Shown here piece after piece: positions 3,715 to 28,754 of a stretch of 42,921 nucleotides of DNA. Position numbers and translations under genes: made by a program. The stretch is from assembly GCA_012032275.1 (NCBI GenBank), contig JAAURK010000004.1, forward strand, positions 1-42,921, in the 5' to 3' direction. Source of the stretch: Tabrizicola sp. Its GTDB lineage: Bacteria > Pseudomonadota > Alphaproteobacteria > Rhodobacterales > Rhodobacteraceae. The notes under the pieces are model-generated. The model had not been told where the DNA came from. It made no database searches and saw only the letters and a program-made list of their open reading frames with translations. Every line of letters starts with the position of its first letter. The stretch's first letter is position 1.

Positions 3715-4830
3715 ATGGCCCGCACCAATCGCATCACGAAGACGCTTCTCGGCCATGCGGCCGTCGCCCTTGGCCTCATGGCAACATCGGCCGGCGCTCA
3801 GGAGCTTTGCTCGGTCTACAGCGTGCAGAAGGGCGACACGCTCAGCGGCATTGCAAGCAGCGCAGGCGTCAAGGGTGGTTTCCAGACCATCTACAACGCC
3901 AACCGCGACACGCTCGCCAGCCCCAATATCATCGAGATCAACCAGAAGATCGTCATCCCCTGCGCGGACGGAACGCTGCCGGGCCAGGCCGCCGCCGCGA
4001 AACCGGTGGAGACCGCAACCGCCGAACCCGCAGCGACCGAAGAGCCGAAGCCCGCAGGCGGCCCGTTGCCCAAGCTGAAGTTCCTGACGGCAAGCGACTA
4101 TGCCCCGTTCACCGATGAAGAGCTTCCGGAAGGCGGCATGTTCACCGAACTCGTCCGCCGCGCAACCGAGCGTGGAGCCCCCGATCTGGAATATTCGGTG
4201 ACCTTCGTGAATGACTGGGGCTCGCATCTGTCCGATCTGCTTCCCTCTGGCGCTTTCGACGGTGGCTTCCCCTGGTTCCTTCCCGATTGCAGCAAGGTCG
4301 ATCTTCTGTCGCCCGCGATGCAACTGCGCTGCAACGACTATGATGCCACGGAGCCGTTCTTCGAAGTGGTGATCGGCTGGTATGCCAAGTCCGGCAGCGA
4401 TCTTCTTACCGCAACCTCTTATGACGCGCTGAAAGGCCTGCGCATCTGCCGCCCCGACGGTTGGTTCACATTCGATCTCGAGGCGCTTGAACTGGTCGAG
4501 CCGAAGATCCCGCTTCTTCTGCGCGCCCCAAGCCAGGTGGACTGCTGGCGCGCGCTGCAGAACGACGAAGTCGACATTGTGACCTTTGACGCCTTGCCGG
4601 CAGAGGATGACATCGTATCGCTGAACATCAGCGACGAAGTGAAGGAAATCACTGGACTGTCGTCGGTGGTGACCGCCCATGTCTTCGTGCCGAAAGGCAA
4701 CCCGAATGGCCCGGCCTACATCGCACTTCTGAACGAGGGGCTGAAAGAAATGCGCGACGATGGAAGCTGGTTCTCGATCGTGTCGCAGCGGCTGCGCGAA
4801 CATGAGGAAAAGCAGGCCGCGGGCAACTGA
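3715..4830 (+). CDS. LysM domain fused to family-3 solute-binding domain
   Basis: The start is set at the ATG at 3715, which follows AAAGGAG by seven bases; the track ORF begins at an upstream TTG without support. The protein has 371 residues: a signal peptide ending near 'SAGAQE', a LysM module at about 32-82 ('YSVQKGDTLSGIASSAGV ... IIEINQKIVIPC'), a Pro/Ala/Glu-rich linker, and a bacterial SBP_3-like domain ('LKFLTASDYAPFTDEELPEGGMFTELVRRA'). LysM binds peptidoglycan glycan, so the binding domain should be tethered to the wall. No amino-acid permease or ATPase is adjacent. It is the last gene of the envelope cluster and is followed by a strong terminator. Confidence 0.85.
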   Translation: MARTNRITKTLLGHAAVALGLMATSAGAQELCSVYSVQKGDTLSGIASSAGVKGGFQTIYNANRDTLASPNIIEINQKIVIPCADGTLPGQAAAAKPVETATAEPAATEEPKPAGGPLPKLKFLTASDYAPFTDEELPEGGMFTELVRRATERGAPDLEYSVTFVNDWGSHLSDLLPSGAFDGGFPWFLPDCSKVDLLSPAMQLRCNDYDATEPFFEVVIGWYAKSGSDLLTATSYDALKGLRICRPDGWFTFDLEALELVEPKIPLLLRAPSQVDCWRALQNDEVDIVTFDALPAEDDIVSLNISDEVKEITGLSSVVTAHVFVPKGNPNGPAYIALLNEGLKEMRDDGSWFSIVSQRLREHEEKQAAGN

Positions 4831-4853
4831 TCCGGACGCGGTGCCACAGTTTC

Positions 4854-4884
4854 GGGGCGGGCCTTCGGTCCGCCCCTTCTTGTT
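4854..4884 (+). terminator. Rho-independent terminator after envelope cluster
   Basis: A ten-base stem GGGGCGGGCC / GGTCCGCCCC (one G-T pair) closes a TTC loop and is followed by TTCTTGTT. It sits between the LysM/SBP_3 stop and the convergent end of hutU, so it probably ends rightward transcription and may also work leftward. Confidence 0.75.
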
Positions 4885-4902
4885 GACCGGCGGGCAGCGG
4901 CG

Positions 4903-6585
4903 TCAGTTTCCCAGAATCGTCGGCAGCCGCAGGCCCTGTTCCCTCGCGCAATCGACAGCCGTCGGGTAGCCTGCATCGGCATGCCGCCAGACGCCCGAGG
5001 CCGGGTCGTTCCACAACACCCGCTCCAGCCTGCGCGCGGCATCTTCGCTGCCATCGGCGACGGTCACGACCCCGGCGTGCTGGCTGAACCCCATGCCGAC
5101 GCCGCCACCATGGTGCAGCGACACCCAGGTCGCCCCGGAGGCCGTGTTGACCAGCGCATTCAGAAGCGGCCAGTCCGACACGGCATCGGATCCGTCCAGC
5201 ATCGCCTCCGTCTCCCGGTTCGGGCTGGCAACGCTGCCTGCATCCAGATGGTCGCGGCCGATGACGATGGGTGCCTTCAGCTCTCCCGACGCGACCATCT
5301 GGTTGAACATGAGCCCCGCGCGGTGCCGGTCGCCAAGGCCGATCCAGCAGATGCGGGCGGGCAGCCCCTGAAACGCGATCCGTTCCTGCGCCATGTCAAG
5401 CCAGCGGTGCAGATGAGCATTTTCGGGGAACAGCCTTTTCATCGCCGCGTCGGTCTTGTGGATATCTTCCGGATCACCTGACAGCGCCACCCAGCGAAAC
5501 GGCCCGATCCCCTTGCAAAAGAGCGGCCGGATATAGGCGGGTACAAAGCCGGGGAAGGCAAAGGCCGTTTCCAACCCCTCGTCGAGCGCGACCTGGCGGA
5601 TGTTGTTGCCATAGTCGAGTGTCGGCACGCCCGCGTTCCAGAAATCGACCATCGCCGCGACATGGGTCTTCATCGAGGCCCGCGCCGCTGCTTCGACGCC
5701 TTTGGGGTCGCTTTCCTGCCGGGCGCGCCAGTCGCCCATGGTCCAGCCCCGGGGCAGGTAGCCGTGCAGCGGGTCATGGGCCGAGGTTTGATCGGTCACC
5801 ATATCGGGCCTGAGGCCGCCCGCCTTCATCCGGGCAAAGAGCTGCGGAAAGACATCGGCCGCATTGCCCAAAAGCCCGACGGATTTCGCTTCGCCCCGCG
5901 ACGTCCAGCCCTCGATCAGTGCCAGTGCCTCGTCAACGGAAGGGGCCTTGGCATCCAGATATCGGGTGCGCATCCGAAAATCGATCCGCGTCTCGTCGCA
6001 TTCCACCGCCAGACAGCAGGCACCCGCCATCACCGCGGCGAGGGGTTGCGCCCCGCCCATGCCGCCAAGACCGGCGGTCAGGATCCACCGTCCGGCGAGG
6101 GTGCCGCCATAGTGCTGACGGCCGGCTTCGGCAAAGGTCTCGTAAGTTCCCTGCACGATCCCTTGTGTTCCGATATAGATCCAGGATCCGGCGGTCATCT
6201 GGCCGTACATCATCAGGCCCTTGCGGTCCAATTCGTTGAAATGGTCCCAGGTCGCCCAATGCGGCACGAGGTTCGAATTGGCGATCAGCACGCGGGGGGG
6301 CGTCCTTGTGGGTGCGCACCACGGCGACCGGACGGCCCGATTGCACCACCAGCGTCTCCTCCGCCTCCAGATCCTTCAGCGTGGCGATGATCCGGTCGAA
6401 ATCGTCCCAGGATCGCGCCGCCCGCCCGATACCGCCGTAAACCACCAGTTCGTGAGGGTTTTCCGCGACGTCGGGGTGGAGGTTGTTCATCAGCATCCGC
6501 ATTGCCGCTTCGGTCAGCCAGCTTTCGCGGTGATCTCGGTTCCGGTCGGCGGGTAGATGTCGCGCTGGTTATGGCGTCTGTTCAT
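4903..6585 (-). CDS. hutU: Urocanate hydratase (two compensating frameshifts)
   Basis: HutU converts urocanate to 4-imidazolone-5-propionate using tightly bound NAD+, the second step of histidine breakdown. Strong family text includes '[42 protein letters not shown]', '[24 protein letters not shown]' and '[15 protein letters not shown]'. The start at 6585 gives '[21 protein letters not shown]', the usual N-terminus. One base is missing in the run at 6523-6525 (AAA where AAAA is expected on the coding strand, '[14 protein letters not shown]'). One base is extra in the G7 run at 6294-6300 ('THKDAPRVLIAN' expected). The two cancel, giving about 560 residues, normal for the family. The start overlaps the hutH stop by 17 bases. 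Confidence 0.92.
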
Positions 6586-8122
6586 GGTGGCCTCCGAGGG
6601 TCGGCAAGGGTGTTTCACTGGCGGCGATCAACTTGCCCTCCGCGATCAGTTCCGCCGCCTTCTCGATATCGGGCGTGAGGATGCGGTCTTCCTGCAGCGG
6701 CGGCACGCAGGCACGCAGGCAGGCCTGGACGCGCTGAAGCGGTGCCGAGGTCAGCAGCGGCGCCCGGAAATCGAGCCCCTGCGCCGCGCAGATCGCCTCG
6801 ACCGCGAGGATGCGGTTCAGGTTTTCGACCATCCGCATCAGCCGCCGCGCACCATGGGCGGCCATGCTGACGTGATCTTCCTGATTGGCGCTGGTGGGGG
6901 TGCTGTCGGTCACTGTCGGATGTGCCAGATGCTTGTTTTCGCTCATCAAGGCGGCCGTGGTGACTTCTGCGATCATCAGCCCGGAATTCAGGCCGGGATC
7001 AGGGCTCAGGAACGGCGGCAGATCGAAAGAGAGCGTCGGATCCACCATCAACGCGATCCGGCGCTGCGAAATCGCGCCGATCTCGGACAGGGCAAGCGCG
7101 ATCATGTCCGCGGCGAAACCCACCGGTTCGGCATGGAAATTGCCGCCGCTGACGATCTGCCCGTCGGCCAGAACCAGCGGATTGTCGGTCACCGCGTTCG
7201 CCTCGATCGCCAGCGTTCCGGCAGCCATGCGCAGCATGTCCATCGCCGCGCCGGTCACCTGCGGCTGGCAGCGGATGCAGTAGGGATCCTGCACCCGGGT
7301 ATCGCCCGTCCGGTGGCTTTCGCGGATCTCGCTGCCCTCAAGCAGGCGGCGCATCGTTGCGGCCGCCTCGATCTGACCGGGGTGCCCGCGCAGGGCGTGA
7401 ATCTCGGGGTGGAGGGGGGCAGTCGATCCCATGATCGCATCGGTCGACATCGCGCTGATCACCAGCGCCGCCTGTGCCGCCCGCCAGCCCTCGAAAAGCC
7501 CCGCGAGGGCATAGGCGGTCGAAAACTGTGTGCCGTTGATCAGCGCAAGTCCCTCTTTCGGGCCAAGGGTGATGGGCGTCAGGCCCGCCGCGCCCAACGC
7601 CTCGACCCCCCTCATTTCACGGCCACGAAACAGCGCGGTTCCCTCGCCGATCATCACCGCGGCCATATGCGCAAGGGGCGCAAGATCGCCTGAGGCGCCG
7701 ACCGAGCCTTGCGCCGGGATGACCGGGACCACACCCTTGTCGCGCATGTTCCGGATCAGCTCGATCACCTGCCACCGCACGCCTGACGCGCCGCGGCCAA
7801 GCGACAGCGCCTTGAGGCACATCATCAGATCCACAATGGCCGAGGGCATCGGATCGCCGACCCCGGCGCAATGCGACAAGATCAGGTTTCGTTGCAGCTG
7901 TTCGGTATTTTCCGGCGCGATCTTCAGGTGGGCAAGCTTGCCGAACCCGGTGTTGACCCCATAGATCGCTTCGGTCCCCGCCGCTGCCTCCGCCACCCGG
8001 GCGGCAGACGCCTCGACCGCCGGGCGCGCGGCAGGGTCGATGCAGAATTGCCGTTCGCGGCGCAAAAGCTCCTCGAAACTCGACAGGGCGACCCGGCCCG
8101 GGGTCAGCGGCGTGGATGCCAT
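6569..8122 (-). CDS. hutH: Histidine ammonia-lyase
   Basis: HutH removes ammonia from L-histidine to give urocanate. The 517-residue product has the family signature '[14 protein letters not shown]'; Ala143-Ser144-Gly145 forms the self-made MIO cofactor. '[12 protein letters not shown]' near residue 53 carries the active-site Tyr loop, and 'NAVTDNPL' and '[15 protein letters not shown]' are further lyase motifs. The track ORF extends to 8356, but ATG 8122 begins the normal HutH N-terminus. It overlaps the hutI stop by 19 bases and the hutU start by 17, so the three genes form one translationally linked operon. The reading frame is intact. Confidence 0.96.
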
Positions 8123-9330
8123 ATTTCGCCTCCGTACATGCGGGCATGAAGCGGCACCCCACCGATGCGGTAGCCGAGTTCGGCGGGATGCTCTGCCTCC
8201 CAGATCGCCAGATCCGCGCGCATCCCGGGGGCAATCATGCCCCGGTCCGCCAGCCCAAGCGCCCGCGCCGCCTGCAGCGTGACACCGGCCAGCGCCTCGG
8301 CCGGGGTCATCCGGAACAGCGTGCACGCCATGTTCATCGCCAGAAGCGGCGAACACATCGGCGAAGAACCGGGGTTGAAATCGGTGGCCACCGCCATCGC
8401 AACGCCATGCGCGCGAAAAAGTGCAATGGGCGGCAGCTGCGTCTCGCGCAAAGTGTAGAACGCACCCGGCAGGATCACCGCCACCGTTCCCGAGGCGGCC
8501 ATCGCCACCACCCCCGCTTCGTCCAGATGCTCCAGATGATCGGCGGACAGCGCGCCATGACCGGCCGCCAGCACCGCGCCGCCAAGGTTCGACAATTGCT
8601 CGGCGTGCAGCTTCACCGGCAGGCCGAGCGTGCGGGCCACGGCGAAGAGGCGCCCGATCTGCACGGTATCGAAGGCGATGCCCTCGCAGAATCCGTCCAC
8701 CGCATCGACCAGCCCTTCGGCATGGGCGGCGCGCAGCGTGGGGATGCAGATCTCGTCGATATAGGCATCGGCGCGGCCCGCATATTCCGGCGGCACCGCA
8801 TGCGCGCCAAGAAAGCTCGTCTGCACCGTGACCGGCCGCCGGGTGGCGATCCTGCGCGCCGTGCGCAGCATCCGAAGCTCTGTCTCGCGGTCAAGCCCGT
8901 AGCCTGACTTGATCTCGATCACCGTCACGCCCTCGGCGATCATCGCATCGACAAATGGCAGTGCCGCGGCGAGGAGCGCGTCTTCACCGGCTGCCCGCGT
9001 GGCCCGCACGGTGGACAGGATGCCGCCACCCCCGCGCGCCACCTCTTCATAGCTGGCACCCTTCAGGCGCATCTCGAACTCTTCCGCGCGCTGGCCGGCA
9101 TGCACCAGATGGGTGTGGCAATCGATCAGGCCCGGGGTCACCAGCCGCCCGCCCGCATCGACGACTGCCAGCGCCCCGTACCGGCCCGGAAGCTCCGCGC
9201 GCGGGCCGACCCAGTCAAGCCGCGCCCCGTCGACCACCAGTGCTGCATCCTCCACCAGCCCGTAGTCACCCTGCCCCGGCCGCAGTGTCGCAGCCCGTCG
9301 TGCGGCAAGAATGTATGTTGAGGGCTGCAT
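8104..9330 (-). CDS. hutI: Imidazolonepropionase
   Basis: HutI hydrolyses imidazolonepropionate to N-formimidoyl-L-glutamate. It is an amidohydrolase: '[25 protein letters not shown]' supplies the metal-binding HxH, '[17 protein letters not shown]' a later metal His, and '[13 protein letters not shown]' the catalytic Asp. Starting at ATG 9330 ('[12 protein letters not shown]') the protein has 408 residues, the usual size. The track gives a 989-residue ORF in this frame, but its first ~580 residues are antisense to hutF and show no domain. hutI is the first gene of the leftward operon, facing hutF across an 84-bp regulatory gap. Confidence 0.95.
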
Positions 9331-12431: not shown

Positions 12432-12476
12432 TTTCTCTTGCGAAAGGCCCGGACCTCGCCTAGGAACCCCCGCAGT

Positions 12477-12551
12477 GGCCCGTTCGTCTATCGGTTAGGA
12501 CACCAGGTTTTCAACCTGGGAAGAGGGGTTCGACTCCCCTACGGGCTGCCA
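12477..12551 (+). tRNA. tRNA-Glu (anticodon TTC)
   Basis: The sequence folds as a cloverleaf. The acceptor arms are GGCCCGT and ACGGGCT, there is a D-arm 'GTCTATCGGTTAGGAC', and the anticodon stem CCAGG/CCTGG holds loop TTTTCAA (anticodon TTC). The T-arm is 'AGGGGTTCGACTCCCCT', with G73 and an encoded CCA. It stays intact because the mobile element restored its 3' end on insertion. Confidence 0.95.
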
Positions 12552-12553
12552 CT
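12537..12553 (+). repeat. attL core direct repeat
   Basis: CCCTACGGGCTGCCACT spans the 3' end of tRNA-Glu, including its CCA. An identical 17-bp copy occurs at 27561-27577. This is the expected footprint of tyrosine-recombinase insertion into a tRNA gene. Confidence 0.9.
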
Positions 12554-12595
12554 TCTTCCGCTAAGTTATTGATCTGCATTGAGTTTTTCCTCTCT

Positions 12596-12626
12596 TTTGT
12601 CCAACTACTTTGCTGGGTTGGACAAT
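12596..12626. other. Probable integrase arm-type sites, left end
   Basis: TTTGTCCAAC (12596-12605) and GTTGGACAAT (12617-12626) are inverted copies of one motif, next to attL and overlapping the 3' end of the integrase gene. The same motif occurs twice near attR, which suggests arm-site binding by the integrase. The core-plus-arm layout is known for lambda-type integrases; the assignment here is inference. Confidence 0.6.
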
Positions 12627-13648
12627 TTCCTGACTTTTTCGAATCCGCTGTCGGCCAATCGCGCCCGGTTTGCCTTGCGCGTATAGGTGCGCGCCTGTGT
12701 CGTATCGGCATGGGCAAGGTATGACGCGATCTCCCACTCCGACGCACCAGCATCTGCAAGCCGCGTGGCACCAGCCTTCCGCAGGCCGTGGATTGACCCA
12801 GGCACACCGGCCTCTTTGCACCGCTTCCTGAACCAGTTGCCGAATGAGGTGACCTTGTAAGGCAACAGCGAGTTCTCTCGCGTAATGAACAGGTTTTGGT
12901 CTGGCGGCAGGCGTGCGATTTCCTCCGCCAGTTCAGGCAGAACTGGCAAATCTGCCGCCACTGACGTCTTGCCCCGCGCATAGGCGATCCGCATTTGGCC
13001 GTCACGGATCGAGATCATGTGCCGACCCGCACCGCAAAGGTCCTGACGCGCCATCCCGGTGTTCAAGGCCACCAGCAGTGCCATTCGCGCTTTGGTCCCC
13101 GCGCCGTGCCGTTCGAGAAACATGGCAACCTCGGCTTCAGTCCAAGTGTGATATCCGGTGCTGTTTTCCTTCGATCGCTCAGCAGACTTAGCCGGGTTGG
13201 TCCCGACATAGTCCAACTTCTGCGCAGCGAAGTTGTAAAGCATCGACATGTTCTTCTTCACGCCATTCGCCGCACTTGGCCCGGCCTTTCTCGACATCAG
13301 CTTTTCGACATGGATGACCTTCATCCGTGCAAACGGCAGGTCACCAGCCTGTTCCCTGATCCAGTCGAACTGATACCGCAGTGTGGACCGTCGGATCGCG
13401 GAAGAGGACTTGTAACGCAGGCTGCCTAGGAACTGTTCGATCAACCAGCCAATCGTCACGGTCGCGGCCCGCGATTTCCGCAAGCGCACACGCTCAATGG
13501 CGGCCTCATGCGCCGCAATAAACTCAGTCGAGCCGTAAGGGCCGGGAAGGTTGGTCCGAAAATCACCCTTCTCGAAACGCCAGTAGATACGCCCCTTGAC
13601 GATGTTCTTGCGTACATACGGATAGGTATTGTTGGTCCGACGGCTCAT
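12605..13648 (-). CDS. Tyrosine site-specific integrase of the island
   Basis: This 347-residue tyrosine recombinase has an N-terminal core-binding region and a catalytic domain. Catalytic candidates are Arg201 ('NTGMARQDLC'), His287-x-x-Arg290 ('SIHGLRKAGATRLAD'), His313 ('YLAHADTTQ') and Tyr322 ('RTYTRKA'). It is transcribed towards tRNA-Glu, stops 52 bases from attL, and should catalyse both integration and excision. Its start overlaps the upstream small gene by 4 bases (ATGA), so it is translationally coupled to it. The reading frame is intact, so the element may still be able to excise. Confidence 0.94.
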   Translation of the reverse strand: MSRRTNNTYPYVRKNIVKGRIYWRFEKGDFRTNLPGPYGSTEFIAAHEAAIERVRLRKSRAATVTIGWLIEQFLGSLRYKSSSAIRRSTLRYQFDWIREQAGDLPFARMKVIHVEKLMSRKAGPSAANGVKKNMSMLYNFAAQKLDYVGTNPAKSAERSKENSTGYHTWTEAEVAMFLERHGAGTKARMALLVALNTGMARQDLCGAGRHMISIRDGQMRIAYARGKTSVAADLPVLPELAEEIARLPPDQNLFITRENSLLPYKVTSFGNWFRKRCKEAGVPGSIHGLRKAGATRLADAGASEWEIASYLAHADTTQARTYTRKANRARLADSGFEKVRKLSNPAK

Positions 13649-16324: not shown

Positions 16325-17406
16325 GTTGGCCGGTGGTTGCGCTTGGTGAGGTTGCCGAGATTGAACGCGAAGGCATAGCGGCCGATCTTATCCCGAACGG
16401 CACGGACTATCTCGGGCTGGAGCATATTGAAAGCGGCGGCATCATTCTCGGAAAGGAAACCGTCGCAAACGGCGATCTGGCCAGCACGAAGTTCACGTTT
16501 ACGTCCGACCATCTGCTCTACGGAAAGCTCCGGCCCTACTTGGCCAAGATCGCACTGCCGGAATTCGACGGTGTTTGCAGCACTGACATCTTGCCTATCC
16601 GTCCAGGGCCACGCCTTGATAAGCGTTTTTTGGCCTTTTACCTGCGTCAGTCTTCAATGGTCGATTATGCTGCAAGCAGGGCCACGGGCGCAAACCTGCC
16701 CAGGTTAAGTCCGACGGCACTGTCGGGATTCCCCGTCCCACTCCCCCCCTTAGTGGAGCAGAGGCGGATTGCAGGGATACTGGATCAGGCGGACGCGCTC
16801 CGCCGCCTCCGCACCCGCGCGCTAGATAGGCTGACCACCCTCGGTCAGGCAATCTTTCACGAGATGTTCGGGGACCCCAAAACTGAACCGGATCGCTGGC
16901 AAGCTATTGGATTTGATGAAGCCTGTCGTGACGAAACAGCGAAATCGCCAAAAGTGCAAAAAACGGAATACCAAATCGCTGGAAAAATTCCAGTGATCGA
17001 TCAAGGACAAAAGGAAGTTGCCGGGTACACGGAGAGCGAGAATGTCTGCAAGTCGCAGGGCCCGGTAATAGTGTTCGGGGACCACACTAAGGCAGTGAAG
17101 TACATCGATTTCCCGTTTGCCATAGGGGCAGATGGTGCAAAAGTATTGAAACCATCGAAACTCTATGAGCCGATATTCTTCGCTGCCTTGCTTCGCAACC
17201 TTCCTATTCCCGATTTGGGATACTCAAGGCATATGCGGGAGGTGAAGAAAATGCGCTTCCCTGCGCCCCCGGTTGTGTTGTAAGAAGTGTTTTCAGCTCG
17301 GTTGGCTGCATTGATAGAGCATGGCGTGGTGCTCAGGTCATCAAAGCAGGACTTATCCACCCTCTTCACCTCCCTCCAACACCGCGCGTTCCGGGGGGAG
17401 TTGTGA
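16321..17406 (+). pseudogene. hsdS: Type I RM specificity subunit with internal stop
   Basis: HsdS picks the DNA target. The first recognition domain starts at 'MSWPVVALGEVAEIERE', the central conserved segment is 'PLPPLVEQRRIAGILDQADALRRLRTRALDRLTTLGQAIFHEMFGDP', and a second domain follows ('PVIDQGQKEVAGYT', 'LLRNLPIPDLGYSRHMREVKKMRFPAPP'). TAA at 17281-17283 ends the ORF after 320 codons. The same frame then continues with a typical HsdS tail, 'EVFSSRLAALIEHGVVLRSSKQDLSTLFTSLQHRAFRGEL', to a TGA at 17404. A C-to-T change turning CAA into TAA would explain it. The truncated form loses the last conserved helix, which pairs with HsdM. Confidence 0.88.
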
Positions 17407-17407
17407 C

Positions 17408-18122
17408 ATGCGGGGCGAATTGATTGGTGTTTGGTCCGAGATGTGGCGCGAGGTCTGGTCGAAGCTCGCCAAGCACCCCGACGCGCCAAATGACCTGTTC
17501 TGCGAGTTGTTCCGAGAGTTGAACACCGCCCGCAATGCCCCGCTCGACCCTGCCACGACACTTGCCGACATCGTCGACAATGCCAACCAGTCCCGCGCCG
17601 CGTTCCGCAAGACCAAGGCGTCTGACCTGCAAGGGGAGCTGGCGTTGGTCAGCTTTCTTGAACGGGCGCATGAGACCATCGAAGATTTCAATCCGGGCGA
17701 TCTGACCAACCGGTATTTCGTTCTGGTTCAGGCATTCCTTGAAAAGTACAGCCTGCGCTACGACCTCCGCCGCCCGTTCAGCCTGCACCCGACATTGCCG
17801 GGCGTCTTCGCGCGCCTGATGCGCGACCTTCATGCCGTTACAGCACAGGATGCGATCCTCGCCGGGCTGATGCGCGATTTCGATGAAACGGTCCGCGACC
17901 TGAAAGGCAATCAGTCCGAGCAGAAGGTTCGGCAGTGTATCGCGGCGCAGTTCAACCTGATGGAGGCGCTGCTGCGCCATCATCCGGATGTGATTGCGCA
18001 CAATGGGGCGGGCGGACAGCAGGCCAACACCTTTGGCGCGATGTGCGACCGCACAATCGTCTGGCCCCATCAGGCAATGAAAGAGTCCGCACAACGCCTG
18101 TACAAATTCGCGTCGGACTATC
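17408..18122 (+). pseudogene. RM-linked accessory protein, 3' truncated by IS fragment
   Basis: ATG 17408 follows the hsdS TGA directly and has GGGGAG upstream. The protein is mostly helical ('MRGELIGVWSEMWREVWSKLAKHPDAPNDLFCELFRELN ... LPGVFARLMRDLHAVTAQDAILAGLMRDFDETVRDLKG'), with no motif that I can name securely. Native sequence stops near 'RLYKFASDYP'; after about 18120 the ORF runs antisense into a transposase fragment to 18340 and becomes Arg/Ser-rich nonsense. Position between hsdS and hsdR suggests an accessory or abortive-infection-like role, but that is inference. Confidence 0.65.
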
Positions 18123-18383
18123 CGGACAGGGACGTGTCGGCGATCAGGGCCAGGCATTCCCGCGTGCAGTCGTCCACTACGGTCAACACGCGGAAGCGGC
18201 GGCCATCGGTCAGCTGGTCGGACACGAAGTCGAGCGACCAACGCTGGTTCGGCATCAGCGGCAGCGCCATCGGGGCTCGCGTCCCTATCGCCCGTTTGCG
18301 GCCACCGCGGCGGCGGACATGCCGCCGCTCCTCGCGGTAGATGCGGAACAGGCGCTTGTGGTTCACCTCATGGCTTCCTCGTG
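18120..18383 (-). mobile_element. Fragment of IS3-family transposase (OrfB)
   Basis: The minus strand encodes 'HEVNHKRLFRIYREERRHVRRRGGRKRAIGTRAPMALPLMPNQRWSLDFVSDQLTDGRRFRVLTVVDDCTRECLALIADTSLSG'. This is the middle of an IS3-family (IS407/IS2-like) DDE transposase, including the first two catalytic Asp positions. Both ends of the transposase are missing, and no terminal repeats were seen. The left edge cuts the accessory gene and the right edge meets the middle of hsdR, so an IS-linked deletion removed the DNA between them. Confidence 0.85.
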
Positions 18384-20119
18384 CCACCCCGGGCGATATC
18401 CGTGCCGTTGAAGTTCCAGCGGGACGGAATTGACTACGACAGCCTTTCGGAGGAGGAAAAGGCGGAATGGGATGCGCTGGAGTGGGATGAAGATGGCACG
18501 ATCCCGGACCGGGTCGAGGCGGCTGACCTGAACAAGTGGCTTTTCAACAAGGATACCGTGGACAAGGTTCTGGAGCATCTGATGACCAACGGGATCAAGG
18601 TTGCTGGGGGCGACCGTCTGGGCAAGACGATCATCTTCGCCAAGAGCAGCCGCCACGCCCAGTTCATCACCGAACGCTTCGACGCGAACTATCCCCACAT
18701 GAAGGGTGAATTTGCCCGCCTGATCGACTACAGCATACCGTATGCACAAACACTGATCGATGATTTTTCAGAGGCCGCGAAGTCTCCGCATATCGCCGTG
18801 TCCGTGGACATGCTCGACACCGGCATCGACGTGCCGGAAGTCGTGAATCTGGTGTTCTTCAAGATCGTTCGGTCAAAGACGAAGTTCTGGCAGATGATCG
18901 GACGCGGCACCCGCACCTGCAAGGATCTGTTTGGTCCCGGTGAGGACAAAGACGAATTCCTAGTTTTCGATTTCTGCCAGAACCTGGAGTTCTTCAACGA
19001 AAACCCAACGGTCAACGACGCTCCAGCCGCAAGGCCAATCGGTGAACGGCTCTTTGCGACACGTGTTGACCTGATCGGCATCCTTCAGGACGTCGGGAGG
19101 CACGAAGGGCTTCTTGCCTCGGTTAAGGCACGATTGCAGGACGAAGTTGCAGGCATGAACCTCGAAAACTTTGTAATTCGCCACTATCGTCGATCCGTCG
19201 AAAAGTTTCAGGCACCAGAGAGCTGGAAAAGCCTCGATCTCGATGCCCGGCTGATTCTTTCCGACGAGGTCGCGGGGCTTCCGAGTGCCTTCGACGACGG
19301 CGCGCTTGCGGCAAAGCAGTTCGACCTCCTGGTCCTGAGCGCCCAGCTCTTTCTGCTGCGCGGTGATGCGGCTTTTGCCCAGCTCCAAAGGCGTCTTGTC
19401 GCATTTGCGTCAGCGCTCGAAAGCCTGTCGAATGTGCCGACGGTCGCCCGAGAGATGCCACTTATCCTTGACATGCAGACCGAGGATTTCTGGCACGACT
19501 TGACGGTCGACGGACTGGAAGACATCAGGAGGCGGCTGCGCGGACTGGCTGACCTGATTGAGCCGAGGCACCGCAAATCGTCATCACCAATTTCGAAGAT
19601 GCACTTGGGCCAACAGCGCCCGTTGATCTCCCCGAAATCGGGTCTGGCGTGGACAAAGCGCGGTTCAAGCTCAAAGCGCGCCGCTTTGTTGCCGAACACA
19701 AAGATCACATTGCCCTCTTAAAACTCCGGCGAGGCGAGGCTCTGACAACGACCGACCTTGCCGAACTGGAACGCATGATGATCGCAACAGGTTTCGCCGA
19801 TGCAAATGTCCTGACGGAGGTAAAGGCAGAACTCGGTCTAGGCACCTTCCTCAGGTCACTGACTGGCTTCGGCCGGGCTGCCGCAAAGGAACATTTTGGC
19901 AGCTTCGTCGCCGAAAACCACATGAGCGCAAGTCAAAACACATTTCTAGAGATGGTCATCGACGCGCTTTGCGAGAACGGGATGATCGACCCTGGCTTGT
20001 TCTACGAAAGCCCCTTCACCGATCTCGATAAAATGGGCATCGCGGGGCTTTTCGGACCGGAGCAAACGGCTGAAATTATCCAGATCGTGGAAAAGGTAAA
20101 CCATTCAGCAGCGGCATAA
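18384..20119 (+). pseudogene. hsdR: C-terminal remnant of type I RM restriction subunit
   Basis: Homology starts abruptly at 'PPRAISVPLKFQRDGIDYDSLSEEEKAEWDALEWDEDG', the middle of an EcoEI-type HsdR. It continues through helicase-domain-2 motifs 'GKTIIFAKSSRHAQFI', 'SVDMLDTGIDVPEVVNLVFFKIVRSKTKFWQMIGRGTR' and the C-terminal assembly domain. The N-terminal nuclease domain and the ATP-binding DEAD-box half, roughly 430 residues, are absent and replaced by the IS fragment. A base is also missing at the AAA run 19575-19577: 'RHRK-IVITNFEDALGP' is expected, joining the 19649-20119 ORF. The stump cannot cut DNA, with or without that frameshift. Confidence 0.9.
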
Positions 20120-20148
20120 GAATGAAAGGGTGATTTAGCATTTGCAAA

Positions 20149-20349
20149 CTAATCATACAGGTTCTCTAGCCATTTCTCGGCACGTCCGGCGGCTAGTAGC
20201 TTGCGTGAAAGCTCGCCGCTAGCAACATCATTGTCAAACTCCTGGATCATTTCATTTGTAATCTTTTTTGGAAATCTCTGAGTGCCTTTTATCAATTGGC
20301 CGCGATACAATTTCAAATCTATGTCTAGTTGGCCCACTTGCTTCCTCAT
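20149..20349 (-). CDS. Small hypothetical protein
   Basis: This 66-residue ORF ('MRKQVGQLDIDLKLYRGQLIKGTQRFPKKITNEMIQEFDNDVASGELSRKLLAAGRAEKWLENLYD') is A/T-rich, with balanced charged and helical composition that looks protein-like. It converges on hsdR. No strong ribosome site or known family is visible, so it could be spurious. Confidence 0.4.
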   Translation of the reverse strand: MRKQVGQLDIDLKLYRGQLIKGTQRFPKKITNEMIQEFDNDVASGELSRKLLAAGRAEKWLENLYD

Positions 20350-20541
20350 CACAGCTCAAAAAAAATGTATCTCAAAAAGCGATACTGTCAACCAGTACCC
20401 CAAAAAAACGCGCACTCTTCGCGAACTTGAGATTTTCGGTCACAATCGGTGGTTAGTATAGTTTTCGATGTCGATCAAACACTTGACTGTTCTTGGGACG
20501 ATATGCGCTGTCGGGTGGCCATTACAATACGCTCTGGGGTA

Positions 20542-24596: not shown

Positions 24597-24991
24597 CTCG
24601 GCCTCGGCGCGCGCTCCTGGACCAGAACCACGCCCGCCCAGATCGCCACCAGAATGACAGTCCCGGCGGCAACAATGGCAAAGCCAAGGGCCTGCCCGGC
24701 CCGGCGCGCCTGCCGCCGGAGAGAGGCCTCGTTGGCGTCAAGGCGCGCGGCAAGGCTTTCGGAGCCAGAGACAAGGTTTCCGATCAACGTCTCGGCATCC
24801 TGAACCTGACACTGAACCGAGGCCATCTGGCCGGTGATCTTCCCGGCCTCGGACGCAAGCTCAGACCGGATGCCTTCCGCCTGTTCCGAAAACGCAGCGA
24901 TGAGCCTAGCAGCCTCGGCTTCGGCTTCCGCAAAGGCCCGGCCCCTGCGCTGGCGCAAAGCGGCGATCTTGGCATCAAGTTCCGGGGTCAC
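24593..24991 (-). CDS. Membrane coiled-coil protein of mobilization operon
   Basis: This 132-residue product starts with a helical, heptad-rich part ('LDAKIAALRQRRGRAFAEAEAEAARLIAAFSEQAEGIRSELASEAG') and ends with one membrane segment ('ALGFAIVAAGTVILVAIWAGVVLV') before a basic tail. It overlaps the relaxase gene by 4 bases and the next gene by 4. A membrane-anchored accessory that brings the relaxosome to a helper transfer channel is plausible, by analogy with MbeB/MobB-type proteins; this is not shown by sequence identity. Confidence 0.7.
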   Translation of the reverse strand: MTPELDAKIAALRQRRGRAFAEAEAEAARLIAAFSEQAEGIRSELASEAGKITGQMASVQCQVQDAETLIGNLVSGSESLAARLDANEASLRRQARRAGQALGFAIVAAGTVILVAIWAGVVLVQERAPRPR

Positions 24992-26385
24992 GGCGTCATG
25001 CCCCTATCAATCGGCGATGCCTTGCTTGGGGAAAGTGCAGCTTCTGCTTTGTCGCGTTCGGTCGTCACTTCCTTCGTCGTCAAGCGGCCGACCAACCGCT
25101 CCCACAGCGCCGCTACCCTTGCGACCACCTCGCCAAGCACCGGCCCAAGGTCCAGCGCCTCGACCTTCTGGCGAAGAGCATTGTCGTGAACCTCCCAGCC
25201 CGCACCATCCGGTCGACGGGTCACCTTGCCGGTTAACACGCCCAGCACCACCTGCACCGCCACCGACGCAGCCTGTGCAGCCGCATGCCGGGCAATCGTG
25301 GCCTTCTGCCCTTCGAAAGCCTGCCGGACCTGCTTCAGCTCGTCAGTCAACCGAGCTGCGTTGGTTCGGGCCTCGGTCAGGATCAGTGCCGCGTCCTGCT
25401 GTCCCTTTAACCTGATCTTCTGAGCCTCCTCCTCCGCAGCGGACCTCTGGGCCGCTGCTTCCCTCTCTACCGCTTGGGCAAGAACCCCGACCCGCGCCCG
25501 CTCTTGGGCAGCCAAGGCCTTTTCGGCCTCGGCATCCGCAAACAGGGTTTCGGCCTGATCCAGCCGATCTGCGAGGTCTTCGACCGATGCCTCCAGCGCC
25601 TCCTCCTGTTCGGCCAGCTCCACTACGCGCGCTTCCATCTCCTGCAACACGCGCGCCGTCCGTTCAGCCTCAGCCTTGCGGGCCTGCCACTGGGCACGCG
25701 ACTGGCACTGCCGCTTTGGCCCGTCGCGCGTCAGGCCCGCCGCCAGCGAGACCTCATGATAATACTGGTCCTGAAGCGCCCTGGCGCGGTCCTTGTAGGC
25801 GGCATTCCCCAACTTGACCGCCGCCTTCGCATCCAACCCCTGTGACTTCGCCGCCGCCTCTGCCTCAACCTTCGCAGTCCATGCAGGGTTCAGATCGCGC
25901 GCCGAGCAGTTCCGGTCCCCCGACGGCAGGATGAAGGCGTGCAAATGGGGATGCTCTTCGTCCAGATGCTGGACCACGCTGACCAGACGTTCACCGTAGA
26001 GCGCCCGGAAGAACGCGACATTCAAGCGAACCCATGCCTGACAGTCGGAATTCGCGCTGGCAACCTGCATCACCTGCGCGGTCAGGTAGGGGTGCGAAGC
26101 AATGGCAGTCATCAGCGTGTGCCGGTCATTGCGCACGGCCCTTTGCTTGATCGTGCCATCGGCCAGCCTGACCGTTACCCCACCCTCAGCGACCATCTGG
26201 GCATGTTTCTCTGCCACTTTGTCAGGCGACAGACCGAAGACCACCAGCGGCGGCTGCGGGCTTTTGACGTGCGCAGAATACTCGAGTTGCCGCGCCGCTT
26301 CGCCAAGGACTTGAGCAACGGACTGCCCTGCCGGGTTGGCCTTTTGCGAGAATGACTGGATGCGAAAGAATTGGGGGCCAGCCAT
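24988..26385 (-). CDS. MobV-family (Pre/Mob) relaxase
   Basis: Starting at ATG 26385 ('MAGPQFFRIQSFS') the protein has 465 residues. The N-terminal relaxase domain carries 'VVQHLDEEHPHLHAFILPSGD' at 138-157. This fits the MobV HxDExxPHxH metal motif (His140, His147, His149) that supports nicking at oriT. A very long coiled coil follows ('ARVLQEMEARVVELAEQEEALEASVEDLADRLDQAETLFADAEAEKALAAQ...'), then a C-terminal tail. It heads a three-gene operon with 4-base overlaps. A palindrome 36-65 bases upstream is a candidate oriT. Finding a plasmid-type relaxase in a tRNA-integrated element marks the island as mobilizable. Confidence 0.88.
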   Translation of the reverse strand: MAGPQFFRIQSFSQKANPAGQSVAQVLGEAARQLEYSAHVKSPQPPLVVFGLSPDKVAEKHAQMVAEGGVTVRLADGTIKQRAVRNDRHTLMTAIASHPYLTAQVMQVASANSDCQAWVRLNVAFFRALYGERLVSVVQHLDEEHPHLHAFILPSGDRNCSARDLNPAWTAKVEAEAAAKSQGLDAKAAVKLGNAAYKDRARALQDQYYHEVSLAAGLTRDGPKRQCQSRAQWQARKAEAERTARVLQEMEARVVELAEQEEALEASVEDLADRLDQAETLFADAEAEKALAAQERARVGVLAQAVEREAAAQRSAAEEEAQKIRLKGQQDAALILTEARTNAARLTDELKQVRQAFEGQKATIARHAAAQAASVAVQVVLGVLTGKVTRRPDGAGWEVHDNALRQKVEALDLGPVLGEVVARVAALWERLVGRLTTKEVTTERDKAEAALSPSKASPIDRGMTP

Positions 26386-26420
26386 CACGCACCCCCGTTG
26401 CAGAGAGAACGCAATATGGA

Positions 26421-27465: not shown

Positions 27466-27545
27466 GTTGGACAAATTGCCTTTTTCTCCAATGAATTCAG
27501 TCCCGGTCACATTGCCTGTTGGACAAATCAATGTGTTGATATCAA
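27466..27545. other. Right-end arm-type repeats and palindromes
   Basis: GTTGGACAAAT occurs at 27466-27476 and 27518-27528, matching the motif pair at the left end. The second copy sits inside a CACATTG / CAATGTG inverted repeat (27508-27535), followed by the perfect palindrome TTGATATCAA (27536-27545), 15 bases before attR. The stretch may serve both recombination and the promoter of the rep-like gene. Confidence 0.55.
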
Positions 27546-27560
27546 ACGGATATGATCTCA

Positions 27561-27577
27561 CCCTACGGGCTGCCACT
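27561..27577 (+). repeat. attR core direct repeat
   Basis: CCCTACGGGCTGCCACT is identical to the tRNA-Glu 3' end at 12537-12553. It marks the right boundary of the integrated element. Confidence 0.9.
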
Positions 27578-27801
27578 CAACCTATGTAAGTTGTTGATTT
27601 TGCTTAATAGTTCTGAGGCTCGAAAATCTGAACCTATTGCAACCCATGACAGAATGACTCCTGAAAGCGGCCTTTCGGGCGCTGCGATGGTCGGAAGTAA
27701 TCACGCATTCGTGAACACGATCAGGCTGCTGGAACTGCGGTCGCTGAACTTGCTTCGCGGGCAGCGGTTAATCTCCAAAGAACTTATATGGGCAACATAC
27801 G

Positions 27802-28368
27802 ATGAAAAGCACAGTCATAGGTTTTGTTGGCGCTTTGCTGATTGCGGGGTGTGCGACGGTGCCAACCCAAAGCGATTTGCCGCAGCTACAAGAACTTAGT
27901 TCGTCAACGCTGTGGACCAAGCAAGCGACGACAAGTTCGCCGCTTGAACTTGCCATGGTCGAAGCCGAACTAGGCTCACGCGGCGAAACTTCATATGGAA
28001 CTTGGTACTTGGGTCAAAAAACAGCGTCTGCTTACGGACGCAAGCTTTACCAACGAACGACAGCAGGCAGACCGACGGCAGACGAAAAGAATTGTAGCGA
28101 TTTCGGTTCCAGCGCCGAAGCGCAAAAATACTTCCTTGCTTCGGGCGGTCCCGTGTCTGACCCGAACCGCCTTGACGGCGACGGCGACGGGCTAGCCTGT
28201 GATTGGGGAACGCAGATTGCGACTGCTAAGAAACGCTATGCATCTAAACCGACGGCAACGCCAAGGGCGACTTCGACTTATCGTTCCTCAAGCCGCTGCT
28301 ATGTGGGCCCAAGGGGCGGGCGATACACAATTACTTCGAGCGGCAGAAAGAACTACGGTGGCTGCTAA
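27802..28368 (+). CDS. Lipoprotein with excalibur calcium-binding domain
   Basis: This 188-residue protein has a signal peptide with lipobox 'LLIAGC', so it should be lipid-anchored. The middle holds an excalibur-type motif: 'NCSDFGSSAEAQKYFLASGGPVSDPNRLDGDGDGLACDWG', with the DxDxDGxxC calcium loop. The C-terminus ends 'SSSRCYVGPRGGRYTITSSGRKNYGGC', resembling a PBCV-type basic adaptor motif. The gene is visibly more A/T-rich than the chromosome to its right, although it lies outside attR. The start is ATG 27802. It may come from an older insertion at the same tRNA. Confidence 0.8.
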   Translation: MKSTVIGFVGALLIAGCATVPTQSDLPQLQELSSSTLWTKQATTSSPLELAMVEAELGSRGETSYGTWYLGQKTASAYGRKLYQRTTAGRPTADEKNCSDFGSSAEAQKYFLASGGPVSDPNRLDGDGDGLACDWGTQIATAKKRYASKPTATPRATSTYRSSSRCYVGPRGGRYTITSSGRKNYGGC

Positions 28369-28754
28369 CGAAAAAAGACCACGAAACCTTGCGCAAACGG
28401 ACGGTCAGGTAGCTTCCTCAGTGGCCCTGTGGAAGATCGTTAGAACGCGGCTGCGGGGATGCCCACAAGGGGCGCGTCGGGGTCCATACCTGCAGCGGTG
28501 CAGGCTCGGCGCGGGGTGGCCCCTGTGGCGAGCCGCAGTGCAGCGGCGGGGCGTCCTCTCGGTGTGACCCCCGCGGCGTGTTGCGTCCTGTCAGGCGGCA
28601 GCGTTTCTCCTTTTCGCTGCCGATCCGCGCACGTCCGGCCAGAAGGGGACGCGTCTTCGATGCTTGCCGGGCGTTTTGACCTCGGTCAAGGCTGCTTCGC
28701 CCAAACGGACTTATGGCTGTGAGAGGCGTGACAAGCTTGGCTGGGTAATCCGAC
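28369..28754. other. Gene-free stretch before the kinase gene
   Basis: There is no convincing coding frame; the ORFs listed here are Arg/Pro-rich and lack domains. It contains an eight-base stem with an 11-base loop (CGGCAGCG / CGCTGCCG, 28596-28622) and, at the right, an FnrL-type promoter. A small RNA cannot be excluded. Confidence 0.5.
28676..28717 (+). promoter_or_regulatory. FnrL/CRP-type promoter of the kinase gene
   Basis: TTGAC-CTCG-GTCAA (28676-28689) is a perfect Fnr-type dyad. A -10-like TATGGC lies at 28712-28717, placing the box near -41.5 as in class II Fnr-activated promoters. The next gene starts at 28755. Low-oxygen induction is expected from the family rule. Confidence 0.7.

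Follow-up and report, generated by a model that had tools for sequence, protein, structure and literature searches.

The window (the whole 42,921-nt stretch of Tabrizicola sp. DNA analysed in this work) comes from a 391-contig draft genome (MAG) with two identical copies of tRNA-Glu. The copy in the window is linked to an SLT_2 lytic transglycosylase gene, a linkage that we find also in the genomes G033, G074, G027 and G021. A restriction-modification island is inserted at the 3′ end of this tRNA gene, and the 17-bp core that the original prediction placed at both island ends, CCCTACGGGCTGCCACT, is present exactly twice in the window, without a single mismatch between the copies. The features that define the island are:

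12477-12551, plus strand: tRNA-Glu (TTC), called by ARAGORN and linked to the SLT_2 gene; in our reading, integration target common to both elements
12537-12553, plus strand: attL, 17-bp core CCCTACGGGCTGCCACT, exact repeat at the end of tRNA-Glu
12562-12575, minus strand: IHF-like site of the younger island at attL (GATCAA-TAAC-TTA, one mismatch to WATCAANNNNTTR)
12597-12625, no strand assigned: arm-like repeats TTGTCCAA / TTGGACAA for the integrase, at 12597 and 12618 in the left end of the younger island
12605-13648, minus strand: tyrosine integrase of the younger island (PF00589)
27467-27526, plus strand: two TTGGACAA arm-like repeats of the younger island's right end, at 27467 and 27519
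27525-27541, no strand assigned: overlapping IHF consensus sites of the younger island's right end, full matches to the consensus
27561-27577, plus strand: attR, 17-bp core CCCTACGGGCTGCCACT, exact repeat; in our reading, also the older element's boundary

The younger island thus has coherent ends of its own, with arm-like repeats on both sides and IHF sites. Within 17321-20119, Helicase_C (18381-19721) and EcoEI_R_C (19649-20119) fall in overlapping ORFs of different frames, preceded by an ORF without Pfam match, which may mean that the type I restriction subunit of the island is broken. The GC minimum of the window (0.446) is reached at 20001-20500, beside a 221-aa ORF, also without Pfam match. 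A weak match to Mob_Pre (plasmid recombination enzyme), below the curated cut-off, is seen at 24988-26388 on the minus strand of the island, as a possible mobilisation gene. In another genus (L182, G027:C28, ~12432-13609), the same SLT_2-linked tRNA-Glu has beside it an integrase with 47% identity to that of the island.

The likeness beyond the core

Similarity between the two ends had been claimed to continue past the core, and the likeness itself is there: TAAGTTATTGATCT (12562-12575) and TAAGTTGTTGATTT (27587-27600) agree in 12 of 14 bases (p = 0.0014 in composition-preserving shuffles) and are the sole two matches of the 14-mer motif in the window. They begin, however, 8 and 9 bp past the core, and with this offset of one base the likeness is not a simple extension of the 17-bp repeat. 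Read on the opposite strand, TAAGTTGTTGATTT is AAATCAACAACTTA, which contains the perfect IHF consensus WATCAANNNNTTR (PMC8942017). Where 0.4 full matches to the consensus would be expected in 43 kb, three are present, all of them within 75 bp around attR. For the shared TAAGTTRTTGATYT the best reading is an IHF site of an attachment arm, with IHF binding suggested by the sequence, and both attachment sites would probably require such a site to bend DNA. This would explain the puzzling likeness beyond the att repeat. The match to the IHF consensus had not been foreseen; neither had the element-specific palindrome nor the truncated element gene at 28443-28592 described below.

The same arrangement is found well outside this window. 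The end of tRNA-Glu followed by TTGATTT occurs in 24 of 397 Rhodobacteraceae genomes (reversed control: 0), at a spacing of 16-18 bases in 22 of 25 matches and with the full IHF consensus in 17 of the 25, and the motif is absent from five other tRNA-Glu ends checked (the second copy of the source genome, G033, G074, G021 and G027). Such a fixed spacing after tRNA-Glu in some genomes, together with the absence from these other ends, argues that the likeness marks an element's attachment arm. A shared IHF site in both layers is nevertheless no proof of kinship between the two elements, and comparison of the younger island's integrase with integrases of the older element's type gave no detectable similarity.

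The segment right of attR and its sister elements

To the right of attR the window carries, in this order, an IHF site, weak arm-like repeats, a palindrome, an A/T-rich gene for an excalibur lipoprotein, a terminator with a weakened stem and the end of a truncated element gene (LVGIP below), with homology to the element ending near 28592:

27587-27599, minus strand: IHF consensus site AATCAACAACTTA at the end of the older element, at fixed spacing after tRNA-Glu in many genomes
27628-27649, plus strand: degenerate arm-like direct repeats (ACCTA..ACCCA), by alignment the counterpart of CTACCCAcaatCTACCCA in sister elements, weak in the window
27701-27714, no strand assigned: palindrome TCACGCATTCGTGA, specific to the element and located upstream of the cargo gene (alignment)
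27802-28368, plus strand: cargo gene, intact excalibur-domain lipoprotein of 188 aa (Pfam; 83% aa identity to PR2)
28371-28406, minus strand: the element gene's terminator, its stem weaker than in sister elements (alignment)
28443-28592, minus strand: truncated C-terminal part (~54 residues) of the element's LVGIPAxxF gene (tblastn, blastn)

The A/T-richness predicted for this region is evident (GC 0.502 at 27501-28000 and 0.574 at 28001-28500, compared with 0.65-0.67 in the sequence to the right of it), and the interval from tRNA to terminator has a GC of 0.531, against 0.626 for the whole window. The predicted excalibur lipoprotein is likewise borne out by PF05901 at 27.6 bits (cut-off 22) and the lipobox LIAGC. 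We rejected the reading of 28443-28592 as the end of a long primase gene, since LVGIP stands as a gene of its own, 141-147 aa long, in G286 and G412; it is fused to PrimPol only in the IMG/VR prophage contig L037. GenBank phage records gave no match to 27540-28600.

Being A/T-rich like the island and directly adjoining it, the segment could be taken for the island's outermost part, with the true right end further out. We regard this as extremely unlikely: a complete right end, with two arm repeats and an IHF site (27467-27541), already lies left of the core; no further core is found in the window; and the segment occurs alone at tRNA-Glu elsewhere. A third att-like core, which the original prediction had proposed to look for further right, did not appear at up to three mismatches anywhere in the window (chance mean 0.10), so that the original right end of the older element cannot be placed.

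What the segment is becomes clearer from other genomes. The same ends, usually with other cargo, adjoin intact tRNA-Glu in about 12 of them, mostly by recJ and not SLT_2; conserved ends with swapped cargo are seen in G012, G155, G310, G391, G412, G286, G199, G213 and PR2. In G012 a different gene stands between the same two ends, and in PR2 (L004, Rhodobacteraceae) the same lipoprotein (83% identity) directly follows an intact tRNA-Glu, with the same terminator and gene end behind it. When aligned, the left ends have in common the IHF site, arm-like repeats in pairs (CTACCCA or CTACTACA, at a distance of 11 bp) and the palindrome TCACG-N4-CGTGA, and the right ends the terminator and the LVGIP end. 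In a protein search most of the close LVGIP matches lie 0.6-1.8 kb from tRNA-Glu in the same orientation. The longer palindrome motif ATCACGCRWWCGTGAAC is present in seven of the 397 genomes (reversed control: 0), each time just past tRNA-Glu; six are loci already known through LVGIP and the seventh is G389. The palindrome has 12 matches in IMG/VR, none beside a tRNA or any tested element gene and therefore taken as chance, and the LVGIP gene is found in one IMG/VR contig only. All tRNA-linked copies sit at tRNA-Glu. Tested copies adjoin recJ in nine genomes and in PR2, and the copy in the window adjoins SLT_2, which indicates that the unit follows tRNA-Glu genes and not a chromosomal neighbourhood.

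These comparisons bear directly on the possibility that tRNA-Glu natively has the lipoprotein with its surroundings as right neighbour and that the likeness past the core arose by chance. A relative without the island but with the same lipoprotein downstream of tRNA-Glu had been named as what would speak against a scar, and PR2 is such a relative; the gene is, moreover, intact and conserved. What PR2 carries is nonetheless the same element with its conserved ends attached, at the recJ-linked and not the SLT_2-linked tRNA-Glu, and this leaves the scar standing. Unrelated genes occupy the same ends in other genomes, the palindrome is element-specific, and the SLT_2-linked sites of G033 and G074 are clean. 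A native neighbour is therefore very unlikely, being largely refuted by the clean sites and the swapped cargo.

One sister element, in G286, is complete. It is bounded by the same 17-bp repeats, 8.3 kb apart, and holds the cargo and LVGIP, two genes of 259 and 181 aa, an AAA_25 helicase, PrimPol, AlpA, a 103-aa gene with a one-base overlap with int, and a P4-type integrase. A search of the 397 genomes through the gene overlapping int found no further complete copy, so that reconstruction of the whole element rests on G286. The layout of the family would begin with attL in tRNA-Glu, followed by the IHF site, the arm repeats, the palindrome, an A/T-rich slot for variable cargo and the terminator, and continue with LVGIP, helicase, PrimPol, AlpA, the small gene overlapping int, the P4-type tyrosine integrase and attR. 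In G412 both cores are present 5.3 kb apart, with transposase-like genes and no integrase between them. The remnant in the window keeps one boundary core only, as opposed to the tRNA 3′-end repeats at both boundaries of G286 and G412; IHF consensus and arm repeats adjoin this core, the repeats being clear in the sisters and weak here, and integrase, AlpA and primase are absent.

Eight genomes carry a tRNA-proximal end without a PF00589 integrase of its own nearby (the source genome of the window, G012, G155, G391, G199, G213, G365 and G389), a count that leaves out PR2, G310 and G394, as their copies run into contig ends. That at least eight genomes have just this unit, the cargo in each case being one gene or a few small ones, could suggest that IHF site, palindrome, cargo, terminator and LVGIP end form a small integrase-less cassette moved in trans, and not a decayed stub. 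We consider this improbable, because the unit is not bounded by a second core in those genomes, its LVGIP end is cut at differing points, both cores surround a longer element in G412 and G286, and more of the element body is kept in G155, G310 and G391.

Two observations concern sequences beside the sister elements. In L037 a remnant of the family (4724-8420, with the fused PrimPol-LVGIP and an NYN cargo) lies beyond the prophage end between two copies of CCTACCGCCGGAGCCA, which reads as another tRNA-like att sequence. Past the attR of the complete element in G286 (L110, 11521-11600) there is again GCTATTGGTTTTGC, which looks like the end of another element and is possibly a further scar.

Two probable layers at one tRNA gene

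Genomic islands that target tRNA genes are known to accumulate in tandem, successive elements using one tRNA 3′ end and displacing older ones outward. The comparisons above establish conserved ends with exchangeable cargo, cores at both ends in G286, loss of the integrase side in the window and relatives' sites without the element. Taken together, they make it very probable that an older integrative element, one of a recurrent family of small elements in Rhodobacteraceae, had inserted in the 3′ end of this tRNA-Glu and that 27578 to ~28592 is what remains of its tRNA-proximal end. That element is different from the younger island, and one cargo gene of it survives in the remnant. The original prediction of a remnant of an earlier related element at the same tRNA accordingly holds as to the earlier element, through the ends in G155, G412 and G391, the complete copy in G286 and the clean sites in G033 and G074, but its kinship with the island is not shown by the shared motif, and the integrases have no detectable similarity. 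The locus would then combine, at a single tRNA gene, layers of two integrative elements unrelated to each other, which is nothing fundamentally different from other tandem islands, the older layer being here a stub with intact cargo.

The older element would have arrived first, and then lost its integrase, its replication genes and its right attachment site; later, the restriction-modification island would have recombined at the core by means of its own, different integrase, displacing the stub outward. The first 26 bases right of attR match, in 22-23 of 26 positions, those directly beside intact tRNA-Glu in G155, G412 and G391, which fits an island inserted between the tRNA and the stub, and excision of the island would rejoin tRNA-Glu to CAACCTATGTAAG, exposing the older end. 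A comparable layering is seen in G365, where a fragment of an island-type integrase precedes the LVGIP stub. The SLT_2-linked tRNA-Glu of G033 and G074 has neither motif nor lipoprotein, and the second, recJ-linked tRNA-Glu of the source genome is also clean; as no relative was found with the window's right flank beside an SLT_2-linked tRNA-Glu, these comparisons are not strict empty sites. In a draft of 391 contigs with two tRNA-Glu copies, the contig might be a chimera joined at one of them. This is the most remote of the alternatives, given that the SLT_2 join is seen in four other genomes, that the attR repeat is only 17 bp long, and that IHF sites, arms and core are coherent on either side of attR.

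Satellite-like layout and cargo

As far as its sequence goes, the G286 layout resembles that of PICMIs, satellites of Vibrionaceae that target the fis region, carry a DUF3987/DUF5906 primase (PMC10803314) and are characterised by induction and packaging through a virulent helper phage, and "satellite-like" is used here as a working description. Small size, 17-bp direct repeats, an integrase with an overlapping small gene, AlpA, a primase and, at the end opposite the integrase, a cargo hotspot are common to both. G286 differs in its Rhodobacteraceae host, its target (tRNA-Glu and not the fis region), its PrimPol and AAA_25 helicase in place of a DUF3987/DUF5906 primase, and its extra LVGIP and 259-aa genes, and it is not known to have a helper phage. 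The window itself holds the cargo end only, whereas the trio of integrase, AlpA and primase is present in the sister. P4-like satellites share with G286 a P4-type integrase, AlpA, primase/helicase functions and a variable hotspot. Their criteria are psu, delta and sid (PMC8628076), and a Pfam scan of the eight G286 element genes and the cargo gave no Psu, Delta, Sid or Epsilon family, so that an assignment to the P4-like group fails. Somewhat short of even confidence, we propose that tRNA-Glu genes of Rhodobacteraceae harbour a PICMI-like satellite family not described before, in which the TCACG-N4-CGTGA palindrome and the terminator mark the cargo slot. Its cargo ends would repeatedly stay behind as stubs without integrase and be retained by the hosts, possibly for defence or exclusion.

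The cargo varies among copies: the excalibur lipoprotein in the window and PR2, an NYN protein in L037, a Panacea/SocA-domain protein in G155 (with a near-identical gene in G391), an HNH-nuclease-like protein in G199 and several proteins without match. The G199 protein has PADLOC matches to defence effectors and resembles HNH effector nucleases of known defence systems, and the palindrome and end sequences offer a simple handle for finding further cargo genes. In the window the lipoprotein has a dN/dS of ~0.15 relative to PR2, and the adjoining element gene is broken. The family seems to be one whose cargo gene outlives the element. The lipoprotein would have been retained under purifying selection, perhaps for a surface or phage-exclusion function, which is our guess, and the constraint may in part predate capture. 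Its relatives in other Rhodobacteraceae (L005-L017, 47-56% identity) were considered as family cargo, but have no palindrome nearby and are not evidently cargo. The last 23 residues of the lipoprotein, CYVGPRGGRYTITSSGRKNYGGC (28300-28365 in the window), recur at up to 91% identity in otherwise unmatched loci of beta-proteobacteria (L020-L031), and are possibly a widespread small module.
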